Assembly (NCBI GenBank): GCA_019241525.1 | Contig: JAFAWY010000058.1 | Coordinates: 62,001 to 126,000 of the forward strand | Reading direction: 5' to 3' | DNA length: 64,000 nt | Origin: Pseudonocardiales bacterium | GTDB lineage: Bacteria > Actinomycetota > Actinomycetes > Mycobacteriales > Pseudonocardiaceae | Part shown: positions 18,604-26,788 of the stretch, piece after piece | Layout: each line of letters begins with the position of its first letter | Position numbering within the stretch: the stretch's first letter is position 1 | Notes under the pieces: generated by a model | What the model saw: only the letters and a program-made list of their open reading frames with translations | The model's database searches: none | Told to the model about the DNA's origin: nothing | Translations under genes and position numbers: made by a program

Positions 18604-20139
18604 TCAGGCTTCGGCAACGGCGGGGACCGCGTTGACGGCTGCCGGGGCGGCCCTGTTCCGGAGCCTGCGGTGCACCACCAGGCCGACCACCACCAACCCG
18701 GCGACGAACAGCAGCGCTGAGTACTGGAGCACCCAGCTGGTACCTGCCGGGTCGTACACCGCCTGCCGCGGCCAGGCAATGTTGATCATCATTGCCACGC
18801 CGTACACCACGGCAAACAGGTTCACCGGTAGCCCCCACCGTCCCAGCGAAAAGCCTCCGGGACCCGTCATCGGCAGCCGACCGCGCAGCCGAGCTTTCAG
18901 AGCGGGACCGGTGACCAGAAGGTACGCCAGGTAGACGATCACCACCGACGTGCTGGTGACCGCCGCGAATGCCGCTGGGTTACCGAGGTTGATCAGCAGC
19001 ACGGCAATCGCCAGCACGCCTACCGCGATGCCGGTGACGATCGGCGTCCCAGTCTGTGGGTGGACCCGGGCGAGCAACCGAGCTCCGGGCAGCCGGCCGT
19101 CGCGGGCCATGCTGAACATCACCCGCGACGCCGAGTTCTGGATGGCCAGGCAGGCGGACACGATCGAGACAGCGACGACCGTCAACAGTGCCCGGCCAAG
19201 CGTGGAGTCCAGCCGGCTGGTGATCACGTAGGCGATCCCTCCTGCGGACAGCTGGCCGTCGGTCAACGAGGGCGCCGCCATCAGCGCAGCCACGATCATG
19301 AACCCGCCGCCGACGAACGACACCAGGAGAGCGCGCAGGATCGCCGACGGGACCACGCGCCGGGGCTCGGTCGTCTCCTCAGAAAGCTCAGCGGCGCTGT
19401 CGAAGCCGTACATGACGTAGGCCGCCATCAACGTAGAGGCCAGGAAGGCGTAGATGTACGGGCTGTTGCCGGAGACATTGAGCGTTTGGGTGACGACGCC
19501 GGGGCCGCGTTCGGCGTGGCTGAACAGCAGCATCAGCAGCAGCACCACGCCGATGATTTCACAGCTGACCCCGATTCCGTTGATCACCGCCATGAACCGC
19601 ACGCCGACAGCGCTGATCACGGTGGCGACCGCGATGAGCACCGCGCCGAGCAGGATCCCGTTGGCGGCACCCGATGCCGAGGTGACCGAGGAGTCGCTGC
19701 CGATGATCTGGAAGCCCGACCACACCGCGGGCAGCACTGCTTGGAGCGCGATGCCGATCGCCGCCACACTGACGATGTAGCCGATCAGCATCGCCCACCC
19801 GGCGAACCATCCGACAATCTCCCCGGCAAGCCTGCGTGACCACTGGTAGATGCACCCGGCCAGCGGCCAACTCGCGGCGAGTTCGGCGAACACCAGCGCC
19901 ACGCATAGCTGGCCGGCGAACACCAGTGGCCAGGTCCAGAAAAACGCCGGCCCGCCGAACGAGTAGCCCAGCGCGAACAGCTGGAATACCGTGGTGAGGA
20001 TCGACACGAAGGAGAACCCGGCGGCGAAGGACGAAAACCAACCGAGCCGGCGGTGCAGCTCCTGGCGGTAGCCGATGCGGCGCAGATCCTCGGCGTCGGG
20101 GCCGCCGGTCGGGCTGGTGATCAGGACAGGGGCGCTCAT
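18604..20139 (-). CDS. APC-superfamily amino acid/polyamine-type permease (candidate guanidine or guanidino-compound transporter)
   Basis: ~511 aa multi-TM protein, [48 protein letters not shown]; starts 1 nt after the ureohydrolase stop, so same operon. Substrate is inferred. Confidence 0.85.
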
Positions 20140-20140
20140 T

Positions 20141-21304
20141 TTAACTGGCCTTTCGCGGTAGATGACCGGCACGCACGAGGCAGCCGAGGGTGTCGCAGAT
20201 CACCCGGGTCGCGATGAGTGAGGTGATCTCGACGTTGTCGTAGGGCGGGGAGCACTCCACGACCTCGATGCCCGCCAGCGGGCGGGCGGCGACGAGCTGG
20301 ATGAACTTCAGGACCTCGCGAGGCAAGAACCCGCCAGGTTCGGGCCACCCTGTGCCGGGGACGAACGCTGCGTCGAGGCAGTCGACGTCGAAGGACAACC
20401 AGACGGCGTCGGTTCCGTCCCACGCGACATCCAGGGCACGTTGCGCGGCGGCCTCGATGCCCATCTCCACGCAGTCGGTGACGGTCAGAATCGTGGTGCC
20501 GCGCTCCCGGCCGACCTTCACTCCGGGTCGGGGCGCCTGCCAGCCGCCGATGCCGATCTGCACCAGGTTGCGGGGCGGCACGTTGGGCAGGTCCGTGGCG
20601 TGAAACCACGGGGTGGTGTGCATCCGCTCGTCGAGGTCGGTTTCCTGGGTGTCGACGTGGCGGTCGAAGTGGATGATGCCGAGCTTGCTGCCGTTGAGGT
20701 GCTCCGCGACCGCGCGTGTGGTCGGGAACCCGATGGAGTGGTCACCGCCCAGCACGACCGGGAAGGCGCCGGAGGCATAGACGTGTCCGACCGCCTTGGA
20801 GATCTGGTCGAAGGTCTTTTCGATATTGCCGGGGATGGTGAATACGTCACCGAGGTCACCAATAGTAATTGACTCTCGCAGGTCGACGCCGAGCTCGAAG
20901 CTGTACGGGCCGTACAGCGCGGAGATTTTGCGGATGCCCTGCGGACCGAAGCGGGTTCCGGACCGGTAGGTGGTGCCGCCATCGAAGGGTGCGCCGAGCA
21001 CCGCCACGTCATATTCGCCGCAGCGGCGGACGTCTTCGACGTAGGGTGCTTTGAGGAAGGTGTTGATGCCGGCGAAATGCGGCAGCTCTCCACGGGAGAA
21101 GGTAGGGATGCGCCGGTCGACGATCGAGTCGGCTCCGGGTAGCCCTAACTCGAGACCTCGCGCGACCTCCCTTTCCCATTGGGTGGTGGGTAGCGCGGCT
21201 TCGGCCTCGACGGCGTACCGCGCCTCCGGGCCGTAGTGTTGATGCAGATTGTGCACGTCGGGCCTCCGCGTCCACGGCGCCCGGCCGCGAGGGCAGCCGG
21301 GCAT
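20141..21304 (-). CDS. Agmatinase-family ureohydrolase; proposed guanidine hydrolase (GdmH-like)
   Basis: Binuclear-metal ureohydrolase motifs LGGDHSIG, HFDRHVDTQETDLDERMHTTPWFHAT and SFDVDCLDAAFVPGTGWPEPGG. Preceded by a guanidine-I riboswitch. Start is either ATG 21304 or GTG 21256 (the latter with GGAGG upstream). Confidence 0.85.
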   Translation of the reverse strand: MPGCPRGRAPWTRRPDVHNLHQHYGPEARYAVEAEAALPTTQWEREVARGLELGLPGADSIVDRRIPTFSRGELPHFAGINTFLKAPYVEDVRRCGEYDVAVLGAPFDGGTTYRSGTRFGPQGIRKISALYGPYSFELGVDLRESITIGDLGDVFTIPGNIEKTFDQISKAVGHVYASGAFPVVLGGDHSIGFPTTRAVAEHLNGSKLGIIHFDRHVDTQETDLDERMHTTPWFHATDLPNVPPRNLVQIGIGGWQAPRPGVKVGRERGTTILTVTDCVEMGIEAAAQRALDVAWDGTDAVWLSFDVDCLDAAFVPGTGWPEPGGFLPREVLKFIQLVAARPLAGIEVVECSPPYDNVEITSLIATRVICDTLGCLVRAGHLPRKAS

Positions 21305-21310
21305 GGCTGG

Positions 21311-21407
21311 CCTCCCGGGCTTTTGTCCCGCCGTGGAGCGGGCAGCGCGCTGCCCGCCTGCATCTCTCGGTCCAGACTCCCTGCGTACAGCGACGGAACC
21401 CTAGATG
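21311..21407 (-). ncRNA. Guanidine-I riboswitch aptamer (ykkC-yxkD leader)
   Basis: Minus strand: CATCTAGGGTTCCGTCGCTGTACGCAGGGAGTCTGGACCGAGAGATGCAGGCGGGCAGCGCGCTGCCCGCTCCACGGCGGGACAAAAGCCCGGGAGG. It has the ykkC signatures CTAGGGTTCCG, CTGGNCCGAGAG and ACGGNGGGANAAAAGCCCGGGAG, plus a GCGGGCAGCG/CGCTGCCCGC stem. Confidence 0.93.
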
Positions 21408-21413
21408 CGCCTC

Positions 21414-21429
21414 ACTCACTCGAGTGAGT
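21414..21429. repeat. 16-bp perfect palindrome ACTCACTCGAGTGAGT upstream of the riboswitch
   Basis: Read directly: ACTCACTC|GAGTGAGT. Confidence 0.8.
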
Positions 21430-21540: not shown

Positions 21541-22392
21541 GTGCGCATCCGGGTCATCGACGCGTTCACTGATCGCCCCTTCACCGGCAACCCCGCAGCC
21601 GTCTGCCTCATGGACCGGGCCACCTGGCCTGATACGCGTTGGATGCAGCAGGTCGCCGCTGAGATGAATCTGGCCGAAACCGCCTTCGCCTATCCCCTGA
21701 CGGGCAGCGCCGGCGCCGAGTGGGCGCTGCGCTGGTTCACCCCCACCGTCGAGGTCGACCTGTGCGGGCATGCCACCCTGGCCACCGCCCACGTTTTGCG
21801 TAGTGACGGGCGGTCTCCCAGGACCGTGCGATTCAGCAGCCGCAGCGGAGTGCTGGTTGCCCGTACCAATGACGACGGCACCATCATGCTCGACTTCCCC
21901 GCCGCGTCGGTTACCGAGTCACCCGCCCCCAGCGGTCTGAGTGACGCACTGGACGCCACTCCTGACACCGTTCACGGCACGGGGGCGCTCGGTGACCTGC
22001 TGACCGTGTTTGGGGATGAGAAAGCGATTCACGGCCTGGTTCCGGATTTGACCGCGCTGGCCGGCATTTCCCGCCGTGAAGGTATTCGCGCGATCATTGC
22101 GACCGCACCGGCAGCAGATCCACGCGGTGAGTACGACTTCGTGTCGCGCGTGTTCGCACCCGCTGTCGGCGTCCCGGAGGATCCGGTCACCGGCAGCGCC
22201 CATACCGCGCTCGCCCCCTACTGGTCGGACCGGCTGGGCCGGGACAGCCTGACCGGGCTGCAGGCCTCCGCGCGCACCGGCATAGTCCACACCACCGTCC
22301 ACGGCGATCGAGTGCACCTGACCGGGCGTGCCGTCACCGTCCTCGACGGCACCTTCTCCCCCCGCGTTCTGGAGGCAGAGTGCTGTTTCTGA
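21541..22392 (+). CDS. PhzF family phenazine biosynthesis-like isomerase
   Basis: 283 aa; RIRVIDAFTDRPFTGNPAAVCLM...VDLCGHATLATAHVL...EDPVTGSAHTALAPYW. Confidence 0.92.
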   Translation: MRIRVIDAFTDRPFTGNPAAVCLMDRATWPDTRWMQQVAAEMNLAETAFAYPLTGSAGAEWALRWFTPTVEVDLCGHATLATAHVLRSDGRSPRTVRFSSRSGVLVARTNDDGTIMLDFPAASVTESPAPSGLSDALDATPDTVHGTGALGDLLTVFGDEKAIHGLVPDLTALAGISRREGIRAIIATAPAADPRGEYDFVSRVFAPAVGVPEDPVTGSAHTALAPYWSDRLGRDSLTGLQASARTGIVHTTVHGDRVHLTGRAVTVLDGTFSPRVLEAECCF

Positions 22393-22434: not shown

Positions 22435-23163
22435 TTACAGAACGCGAAGGAGATCGGTGACCCGGTCACCGAGCGCGAGCACCATGCGACCTGGACCTTC
22501 CAGGGCGGAGCATGCCCAGCGCAGCCCCGGCTGCTCACCGGCCTCCGGTACGGGGCTCTCGGTTTCTTGCCCAAGGTCGAGCAGCATTCCGACGGCGCGC
22601 CCGCCACCCGTGCCGGCAGGACCGGTAAGCACGGGATCTGCACCGTCAAGCAGCAGCGTGTGCGCCAGCAGGGGTGCACCATCCAGGTCCACGGCTAGCT
22701 CGCCGATGAACCGCCCGCCGCGTTGACCGGCACGCCCGAGCACCACCAGTTCACGGAGCACCGCGCGGGCTCCTGGCTGCAGCGCGACAGTGATCCGGCT
22801 GTGCAGCTGCGCTCCGTCACAGACGACGGTCGGTTCCGGTCGCCAGTCCAGCACAGCGCCATCGGCCACCGAGGCCGTCACCGCCCACCGCGCAGCAGTT
22901 CCCGGGCAGGGACCTGCTTGCACCACGGTGGCGGCCACTGAGCGCAACTGGACAGCGCAACCCGGACCGATGTGGATATCCAAGGCCAGGTCATCGCCGC
23001 CCAGCGGGCCGCCGGCACCCTGCACCAGGTGTATCCGGTGTCCACCGGTGGAACGCAGCACGATTGGTGCAGCGCTGCGCCAGCGGATACCGGATGCGTC
23101 GACGGTGAGCTCAGCCTGGGCTTTCACCGGCGAGTGGCCGACCGTAGCTGGGTGCCCACCCAC
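22435..23163 (-). CDS. ureD: Urease accessory protein UreD
   Basis: 242 aa downstream of ure[42 protein letters not shown]. Confidence 0.9.
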
Positions 23164-23747
23164 TCCACCACCGGGCCGGCGTCAGGTTGTTCCCGGAGCG
23201 AGAGCAGCACGGTGGGCCGGTCGCCCCGCACCGCCACAGCGTCACGGCGCATCACCTCCAGATCGGCGCCGACGAGCGGAGCAAGGTCGATCTTGTTGAT
23301 GACCAGCAGGTCGGAACGGGTAACGCCGGGCCCGCCCTTGCGGGGAACTTTGTCACCGCCGGCCACGTCGATAACGAAGATCTGCGTGTCGATCAGTCCG
23401 TAGCTGAAGGTGGCGGTGAGGTTGTCCCCGCCGCTTTCCACCAGCACCAGGTCGGGATCGTGACACGCGGTGAGCTCGTCCACGGCGTCCAGGTTTGCGG
23501 TGATGTCGTCACGGATCGCGGTGTGCGGGCAGCAGCCGGTCCGCACTGCACGGATCCGCGCGTCGGGCAGCACCGCATTGGTGCGCAGGAAATCGGCATC
23601 TTCGGTGGTGTAGATATCGTTGGTGATCACCGCCAGGGATAGTTGGTCACGCAGTGCCCGGCACAGCGCGGCGACCAGCGCGGTCTTGCCGCTGCCGACT
23701 GGCCCGCCGACGCCGATCCGCAGTGCCCGCCATTCGTCACGAGGCAA
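23124..23747 (-). CDS. ureG: Urease accessory GTPase UreG
   Basis: 207 aa; [47 protein letters not shown]. Confidence 0.97.
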
Positions 23748-24423
23748 ACAGCGTCACCTCCGCCCGGGCATGCAGTTCAGCCAGGACCTCAGGCAGCGGA
23801 GTGCTCGTGCTGGGCAGCAGGCGGGGTTCCAGCCGCGCAACGGCCTCGCGGGCCACGTCGGTTGCTTCCCGCACGATGTGCTCAGCGAAGCGGCTCGCGC
23901 GTGCCTGGACGGCGGCGACCGTGATCGGATCCAAACCCAGCAGCCGCACCGCGGCCGCGCACGCCCCACTCAGCAGGTGGTGCAGTGCCAGCGACGCCGC
24001 CACGCCGGCATCGTCCCCGGCGGCGGCTACCACGGCGCCGAGCACCAGAGGGTGATGCGGGCGGCCGATCTCAGCCAGCTCGTCCAGGGCCGGGGACGGC
24101 CAGACCCGGCGGACGGTGCGAAGCAACGTCATCCCTTGCGCACGAGACGCTTCCCGGGTCGCGGACGACGGGGTACGGGCGCTGACCGCCGCATCCCAGA
24201 CATCCCAGTGCACCGGCGCAGTTTCAGCGAGGAGGCAGCCGGCTGCGGCGACCGCGGCGACCACCGGTCCGGTACCGCCCAGCCGACCGGCGAGGAACAG
24301 TGCCAGGTCCTGCGCATCGCGTACCAGATTGCGCGCGACGGCAGCCTCGACGGTGCCGGAGTGCACGTGCCCGCCGGTGGGCAACCGGGAATCGGCCAGC
24401 AACAGCGACGCCAGTACGGTCAT
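23737..24423 (-). CDS. ureF: Urease accessory protein UreF
   Basis: 228 aa; [23 protein letters not shown]; between ureG and ureC. Confidence 0.92.
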
Positions 24424-26489
24424 CAGAACAGGAAATAACGCTGGGCCATCGGAATTTCCGCCGCCGGGTGCGGTTCCACCACCTCACCGTTGATCCGTAC
24501 TGTGAACGTTTCAGGGTCCACGTCGATGCGGGGCAGCGCGTCGTTGTGCGGCATATCGGACTTACGTAGCGCCCGGGTGTCCCGCACCGCCACCAGCTTG
24601 CGGCGCACCGCGAGCCGCTCTGCCAAACGCCCCTGCAACGCGGCGGGAGCCACAAAGTGCAGTGACGTGGCGGCGGCACTCGCCGCGGAGGCCCCGAACA
24701 TCGGACGGGGCAGCACCGGTTGCGGGGTCGGGATGGAAGCGTTGGAATCGCCCATCGCGGCCCACGCGATCATGCCGCCCTTGAGTACGACGCTCGGACG
24801 TACCCCGAAAAACGCGGGCTGCCACAGCACCAGGTCGGCGAGCTTGCCCACCTCCACCGAGCCGACCTCACCATCTAGCCCGTGCGCCACCGCGGGGCAG
24901 ATCGTGTACTTGGCGACGTAACGGCGCGCTCGCAAGTTGTCCGAGGTGTCCGGATCTCCGGGCAACGCGCCGACCCGGCGCTTCATCACGTGCGCGGTTT
25001 GCCAGGTCCGCAAGATGACCTCGCCCACCCGGCCCATTGCCTGGGAGTCCGAGCCGATCATGGAGATGGCCCCGAGATCGTGCAGCGCATCCTCGGCTGC
25101 GATGGTGGATGGACGGATGCGGCTCTCCGCGAAGGCGAGATCCTCCGGCACGGTGGGATTGAGATGGTGGCACACCATGAGCATGTCGAGGTGCTCATCG
25201 ACAGTGTTGCCGGTGTGCGGCCGCGTCGGGTTGGTGGAGCTGGGCAGTACATGTGGGGCGCCGGCAACAGTGATGATGTCCGGCGCGTGGCCGCCGCCGG
25301 CTCCCTCGGTGTGGTAGGCGTGAATGGTTCGCCCGCCAATCGCGGCCAGCGTGTCGGCGACGTAGCCGGCCTCGTTGAGGGTGTCGGTGTGGATCGCCAC
25401 CTGCACCCCGGTCTCGTCGGCAACCCGCAGGCAGGCGTTGATTGCTGCCGGGGTCGATCCCCAGTCCTCGTGCAGCTTGAAGCCGCTGGCACCGGCCGCG
25501 ACCTGCTCGTACAGCGACTGCTCACTGACTGTGTTGCCCTTGCCGAGCAAGGCGACGTTCACCGGCAGATCATCGAGGGATTCCAGCATTCGCGCCAGGT
25601 ACCAGGCACCCGGCGTCACTGTCGTGGCCTTGGTGCCCTCGGCGGGACCGGTGCCGCCGCCGATCAGCGTGGTGACGCCGGACCCTAACGCTTCGGGTAC
25701 CTGCTGGGGGCTGATCAGGTGCACGTGGCAATCGACCGCGCCCGCCGTCAGGATCAGTCCGTTGCCGGCGATCACTTCGGTTCCCGGGCCGATGACGAGG
25801 GCCGGATGCACCCCATCCATGATGTCCGGGTTGCCCGCCTTGCCCAGGCCGACGATCCGGCCGTCGCGCACCCCGACGTCGGCCTTGATCACCCCCCAGT
25901 GGTCCAGCACCACCGCTCCGGTGACCACCAGATCTGGCGCACCATCCGCCCGGGTGGCCCGGGCCTGGCCCATCGACTCGCGGATCACCTTGCCACCACC
26001 GAAGACCACCTCGTCGCCGCCACGGGGGCCACGGCACCGATCTTCGGTGATCTCTACCAGCAGGTCGGTGTCGGCCAGCCGCACCCGGTCGCCTTCAGTG
26101 GGACCGAAAAGCTTGGCATACCGGCTGCGCTCCACTGTCCAGCTTCCACCAGTCGGGGCCGGTATGGTCGCGCCCGCAGGAGGAGGTGCATCGAGGCGCA
26201 AGCCCGGCACGACGCGGGCACCGCCCAGCGGCACCACCCGCACAACCCGCTCGATGCCAGGTTCGAAGCGCACAGAAGTCCCTGCCGGAATCGCCAACCG
26301 CATGCCCGTGGCGGCGCCGCGGTCCATGTCCAGCGCCGGGTTTGCGGCGGCGAGGTGGTAGTGAGATCCCACCTGGACCGGCCGGTCACCGGTATTGCGG
26401 ATGACCAGCTCGGCACCGGCATCCGGTCCAAGCACGACAGGTTCCCCGCACAGCAGTAGCTCTCCGGGCACCACAGGTTCGGGAGTCAC
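24423..26489 (-). CDS. ureC: Urease fused beta-alpha subunit (UreB-UreC fusion)
   Basis: Single 688 aa ORF. N-terminal UreB-like part ([14 protein letters not shown]...[25 protein letters not shown]...), Pro/Ala linker, then UreC ([54 protein letters not shown]). Confidence 0.95.
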
Positions 26490-26788
26490 TGGATTGGCCG
26501 GTGGACGGTGACCAGCTTGGTGCCGTCGGGAAAGGTCGCCTCCACCTGCACAGATATGATCATTTCGGGCACCCCATCTAGCACGTCCTCCCGGCTGAGC
26601 ACCCGCTGACCTGCGGACATCAGATCAGCGACGCTACGCCCGTCGCGGGCTCGTTCCAGCACCCATGAGGTGATCACTGCCACGGCCTCGGGATAGTTGA
26701 GCCGCAGACCCCTCGCACGGCGCTGCCTGGCAAGCTGGCCAGCCAGGTGGATGAGAAGCTTTTCCTGCTCATGCGGGGACAGCAGCAT
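26486..26788 (-). CDS. ureA: Urease gamma subunit
   Basis: 100 aa; [40 protein letters not shown]...[14 protein letters not shown]. Confidence 0.97.

Follow-up and report, generated by a model that had tools for sequence, protein, structure and literature searches.

We analysed a 64-kb window, a stretch of 64,000 nucleotides from a soil Pseudonocardiales bacterium (contig JAFAWY010000058.1, positions 62,001 to 126,000), and found a locus that in all likelihood serves the guanidine-inducible use of guanidine as a nitrogen source. It comprises a Guanidine-I riboswitch, a gene for a putative guanidine hydrolase (gdmH), a permease gene and an adjacent urease cluster (Table 1). In the proposed scheme guanidine would bind and stabilise the Guanidine-I aptamer, and the stabilised aptamer would prevent its own 3' end from joining an OFF hairpin further down the leader, allowing expression of the gdmH-permease transcript. 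The APC permease would bring guanidine into the cell, GdmH, a ureohydrolase of the binuclear nickel type, would hydrolyse it, yielding urea and ammonia, and two more ammonia would be released from the urea by the urease encoded next to them. At the level of sequence, the scheme is carried by the identity of the riboswitch, the enzyme subfamily with its catalytic and specificity residues, the tight gdmH-permease layout, a corrected start codon and the urease neighbourhood. We infer that guanidine is the ligand of the riboswitch and the substrate of the enzyme in the host organism, and likewise the metal content of the enzyme.

The window was scanned against all Rfam families and gave a single match, Guanidine-I (RF00442), which spans the full covariance model (positions 1-107 of 107) and lies above the Rfam gathering threshold of 63 bits. 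The original prediction had placed this riboswitch at 21407-21311 on the minus strand; the interval is accurate to within a few bases, and all the conserved ykkC/guanidine-I blocks that it cited are found in the sequence. A whole-genome search for a second Guanidine-I copy found none, leaving the copy at 21415-21310(-) unique. The class is described in PMC11410670 as permitting expression of downstream genes only when guanidine is present.

The first open reading frame (ORF) downstream on the minus strand belongs to the Arginase family (Pfam PF00491, E 1.6e-77). Its closest solved structures are 9fek (E 6e-220) and 7esr/7oi1 (E 8e-170), with proclavaminate amidinohydrolase as the next family (2e-51). 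According to PMC11410670, 9fek is the guanidinase of Nitrospira inopinata and 7oi1 the GdmH of Synechocystis; the PDB entry names for 9fek/7oi1 still read 'agmatinase 2'. Reference enzymes were compared over aligned parts only, using the structure-search alignments, with E. coli SpeB taken from its genome. The window enzyme is 83 % identical to the assayed N. inopinata guanidinase and 67 % to Synechocystis GdmH (7esr/7oi1), compared with 30-37 % to E. coli SpeB, the agmatinase 4dz4, guanidinobutyrase, guanidinopropionase and proclavaminate amidinohydrolase, and 30-33 % when the characterised agmatinases are taken alone.

One alternative is that an agmatinase, or some other guanidino-acid hydrolase, stands behind a guanidine riboswitch by chance. 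The best-matching NCBIfam models are indeed agmatinases, but the agmatinase, arginase and formimidoylglutamase models all score under their own cut-offs for this protein (158.5 vs 174.3 bits for the agmatinase model TIGR01230 and 209.8 vs 302 bits for PRK02190), and the identities above set it far closer to guanidinases than to agmatinases. In the alignment all six metal ligands are kept (H173, D198, H200, D202, D290 and D292 in the 371-residue protein, equivalent to H182, D207, H209, D211, D299 and D301 in N. inopinata), and H213 and E334 (H222 and E344) are likewise present. Both guanidine-specificity residues, T96 and W304, are there as well; they correspond to T105 and W313 of N. inopinata, which PMC11410670 uses to infer guanidinase function. 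The specificity tryptophan is missing from all five non-guanidinase references and from every aligned actinobacterial paralogue of 30-38 % identity, which argues against the agmatinase alternative. The original prediction had singled out two segments as GdmH-like, FDRHVDTQETDLDERMHTTPWFHAT and FDVDCLDAAFVPGTGWPEPGG; the protein contains both, and their alignment with the two characterised guanidinases is free of gaps.

The ureohydrolase phylogeny that the original prediction had proposed, built by maximum likelihood from 90 sequences, points the same way. The window enzyme falls in a 65-member clade that holds both verified guanidinases with a support of 100/100, and the other characterised ureohydrolases lie outside; the agmatinases E. 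coli SpeB and 4dz4 are on the opposite side of the 100/100 branch. The tree program flagged long branches among the outgroup references, and the branch of the window enzyme is short and deep inside the guanidinase clade. We therefore regard the agmatinase alternative as very improbable. Two points nevertheless speak against the guanidine hydrolase assignment. The N. inopinata guanidinase is reported in PMC11410670 to free some urea from agmatine as well, a measurable activity that favours the alternative and means that strict specificity cannot be assumed. In addition, no dedicated nickel chaperone genes stand beside gdmH, unlike in Synechocystis; the gene for UreG adjoins the locus, and one for HypB is at another place in the genome. 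As judged by identity, residues and clade, urea and ammonia are very probably the products that the enzyme forms from guanidine, as had been predicted.

Comparison of the leaders among siblings sets the conserved gdmH start at the GTG 21256-21254, preceded by a GGAGG Shine-Dalgarno sequence, and gives a protein of 371 amino acids. In the nearest sibling (L032, protein 97 % identical) an ATG occupies exactly the position of GTG 21256. The original prediction was right that the first minus-strand ORF downstream of the riboswitch is a ureohydrolase; only the ORF boundary is corrected here. A start at ATG 21304 was rejected because this codon is unconserved and lies inside the non-conserved leader: most siblings have another codon there, several have a different frame, and the 16 residues that it would add show no conservation. 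The corrected leader leaves a gap of 53 nt from the 3' end of the aptamer (21310) to the start codon.

We infer the ON-switch mechanics of this leader from predicted structures. The 3' end of the aptamer (GCCCGGGAG) is predicted to be able to base-pair with the adjoining downstream stretch of the leader, at the cost of the last helix of the aptamer. A shuffle test of the OFF hairpin gave p 0.005 over 39 leaders, uncorrected for kinship. Two results weigh against the proposed switch: the same test on the window's own leader was negative (0.27 vs 0.50), and in two-state folding of the 39 leaders an occupied aptamer does not free the Shine-Dalgarno sequence on average (0.35 vs 0.39 unpaired). For covariation, 30 leaders were aligned with MAFFT; the 3' arm is poorly aligned and no pair counts are claimed.

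It is conceivable, although we lean slightly away from it, that the leader masks the Shine-Dalgarno sequence and so acts on translation instead of on transcription termination. The OFF hairpin of the window is followed by no U-tract, and folding predicts a hairpin containing the Shine-Dalgarno sequence (21283-21259) for the window and hairpins of this kind, differing in sequence, for relatives including L036, L044, L070 and L108. Termination is favoured by the relative L081, which has a textbook terminator with a long stem and U5 at the place of the OFF hairpin, and by PMC12186494, in which Guanidine-I is presented as shown to regulate transcription; the missing release of the Shine-Dalgarno sequence in two-state folding also counts against translational control. 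The folding and shuffle tests that bear on the choice between termination and translation are weak, or negative for the window.

Table 1 Features of the guanidine locus in the window and in related loci
Feature	Position	Strand	Evidence
Guanidine-I (ykkC) riboswitch aptamer	21310..21415	-	RF00442, 88.5 bits, E 1.6e-14 for 64 kb; same place in 8/11 genomes of genus
Candidate OFF hairpin, aptamer 3' end and leader (expression platform)	21285..21318	-	minimum-energy fold; similar hairpins in most relatives
Candidate second hairpin over Shine-Dalgarno	21259..21283	-	predicted in window; in several relatives with other sequence
gdmH Shine-Dalgarno sequence GGAGG	21263..21267	-	sequence and conservation among siblings
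gdmH, putative guanidine hydrolase, 371 aa	20141..21256	-	identity to guanidinases, key residues, clade support 100/100
APC-superfamily permease, probable guanidine importer	18604..20139	-	PF13520 E 2.4e-39; TIGR03428 670 bits, cut-off 740
ureD, urease accessory protein	22435..23163	-	PF01774 E 2.9e-29
ureG, urease nickel-insertion GTPase	23124..23747	-	TIGR00101 271 bits, above cut-off
ureF, urease accessory protein	23737..24423	-	PF01730 E 2.7e-22
ureBC, fused urease beta and alpha subunits, one ORF	24423..26489	-	beta domain 25-98, alpha 118-688
ureA, urease gamma subunit	26486..26788	-	PRK13241 above cut-off
Riboswitch-gdmH-permease-urease runs	L068 8810-16731; L075 3240-10135; L086 8856-16688		
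5_ureB_sRNA matches	L068 12591-12883; L072 10132-10433; L075 7004-7285; L086 12853-13147	-	Rfam

The ATG of the permease lies 1 nt past the gdmH stop codon (TAA-A-ATG). The protein resembles TIGR03428, 'permease, urea carboxylase system', slightly under its cut-off, a family associated with urea(guanidine) carboxylase systems; the probable role of the permease here is the import of guanidine. About 1 kb upstream of gdmH and on the same strand is a complete urease cluster, ureA-ureBC-ureF-ureG-ureD. A PhzF-family gene (21541-22392) lies on the opposite strand between the two, and the urease cluster is a unit separate from gdmH-permease and separately transcribed. A urease neighbourhood fits because the product of a guanidinase is urea. 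Of the 50 actinobacterial loci retrieved, 13 have urease genes no more than about 9 kb away from gdmH, some on its upstream and some on its downstream side; given this number and the varied gene orders, the proximity is unlikely to be due to chance.

The same enzyme acting on the same substrate could have guanidine detoxification and not nitrogen supply as its purpose. Guanidine is toxic, Sll1077 is reported to ease its toxicity in an engineered cyanobacterium (PMC8390497), and many Guanidine-I riboswitches govern exporters according to PMC12186494. The co-transcribed gene, however, is an amino-acid-type permease for which import is expected, and a whole urease cluster stands next door and, in several relatives, directly in line. 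We thus consider detoxification improbable as the purpose and favour nitrogen supply.

The ureBC fusion is a single ORF of 688 amino acids, also seen in L032 (3878-5944) and L033 (742-2799). The fused frame is free of stop codons in 7 genomes of the genus, and in the other genera of the family and order that this search covered ureB and ureC are mostly separate genes. Urease gamma-beta fusions are known, and a literature search on beta-alpha fusions found no paper.

Three related actinobacterial metagenome-assembled genomes (MAGs; L068, L075 and L086) have the genes in line: one riboswitch is followed by gdmH, then by an APC-type permease gene and then by urease genes, all with one orientation and short gaps. 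Their RF00442 matches score 74-77 bits, ureA begins about 24-72 nt after the permease, and Pfam matches to the permease were obtained for L068 and L075. We think it rather likely that some Actinomycetota possess a self-contained guanidinase pathway, with urease itself placed under guanidine control. If so, the entire route from guanidine to three ammonia would depend on one RNA switch in these three loci, and the window would represent a neighbour form in which the urease, with its fused UreBC, is adjacent yet separately transcribed. According to the review PMC12186494, urease genes are not under riboswitch control, and a urease under a guanidine switch is not discussed in the consulted parts of PMC11410670, PMC8390497 and PMC12186494.

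Other gene arrangements were observed. The Chloroflexota MAG L072 has ureA about a dozen bases after gdmH and no recognisable Guanidine-I riboswitch in the locus. In Pseudonocardia acaciae (L041 4523-10107) gdmH follows immediately on ureABCFGD with the same orientation, and the locus gave no Guanidine-I riboswitch match; for both reasons this gdmH may have joined the urease operon. Separately, four distant loci (Table 1) gave Rfam 5_ureB_sRNA matches that lie antisense to the beginning of ureC. They were not accepted as real RNAs because they overlap conserved coding sequence, of which they are most likely a by-product.

Relatives of gdmH with 82-97 % identity occur, among the matches listed, across Actinomycetota, in Nitrospirota (mainly Nitrospira MAGs), in two Chloroflexota and in one Entotheonella. 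Within the genus of the window, riboswitch and gdmH are jointly present in 8 of 11 genomes and jointly absent in two. In the remaining genome (G006:C49:49399-50196, L013) gdmH is interrupted by an in-frame stop and its matches are split close to the end of a contig, with no Guanidine-I riboswitch, and either pathway decay or an assembly fault is a possible cause. The riboswitch motif directly precedes gdmH in about 41 of the 50 actinobacterial loci; an Rfam scan of five loci lacking the motif (L041, L042, L048, L053 and L057) gave no Guanidine-I match. A different composition was observed in the Actinomycetes MAG ZJ4.bin53 (L060 1282-5850), where a Guanidine-I riboswitch is followed by another ureohydrolase, a Rieske oxygenase, a metallo-beta-lactamase (MBL)-fold hydrolase and then gdmH. 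The leading ureohydrolase is 36 % identical and has valine and serine at the two specificity sites, and the oxygenase is closest to glycine betaine monooxygenase. This locus looks like a route for N-methylated guanidines by demethylation and then hydrolysis.

The window locus is a known kind of system, well supported and widespread in Actinomycetota. A Guanidine-I riboswitch with an APC permease and a guanidinase has been published for comammox bacteria, and the enzyme class has been published for Synechocystis (PMC11410670, PMC8390497, PMC12186494). In comammox, guanidine induces the guanidinase (PMC11410670). The window enzyme shares its metal ligands and specificity pair with that of N. inopinata (9fek; PMC11410670), and in both loci dedicated nickel chaperone genes are absent beside the guanidinase. 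The gene order differs, being riboswitch-permease-guanidinase in N. inopinata and riboswitch-guanidinase-permease in the window. The window permease shares only about 30 % identity with the permeases of such Nitrospira loci, and the N. inopinata urease is away from the riboswitch locus. Synechocystis sp. PCC 6803 GdmH/Sll1077 (7esr, 7oi1), a nickel-dependent guanidinase according to PMC8390497, is likewise led by Guanidine-I and has the threonine and tryptophan, whereas its operon encodes an ABC importer and nickel-delivery proteins in place of the APC permease. The guanidine carboxylase pathway (guanidine carboxylase, carboxyguanidine deiminase and allophanate hydrolase) is also often controlled by Guanidine-I and ends in ammonia, and a locus of this type is the source of the permease model TIGR03428. 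None of its three enzyme genes was identified among the genes examined beside gdmH, and direct hydrolysis by GdmH, unlike that pathway, requires no ATP.

Actinobacterial guanidinases are not discussed in the portions of PMC11410670, PMC8390497 and PMC12186494 that we consulted, and we make no claim that such members are unreported. The corrected start codon and the defined leader provide a basis for examining the switch, and cultured relatives were identified, for example in Dactylosporangium, Kutzneria, Pseudonocardia and Herbidospora. Direct hydrolysis of guanidine, so far demonstrated for one cyanobacterium and for comammox Nitrospira, would extend to a broad range of actinobacteria, mostly from soil, among them Pseudonocardiaceae, Micromonosporaceae, Streptosporangiaceae and others, whose gdmH genes current family models point towards agmatinase.
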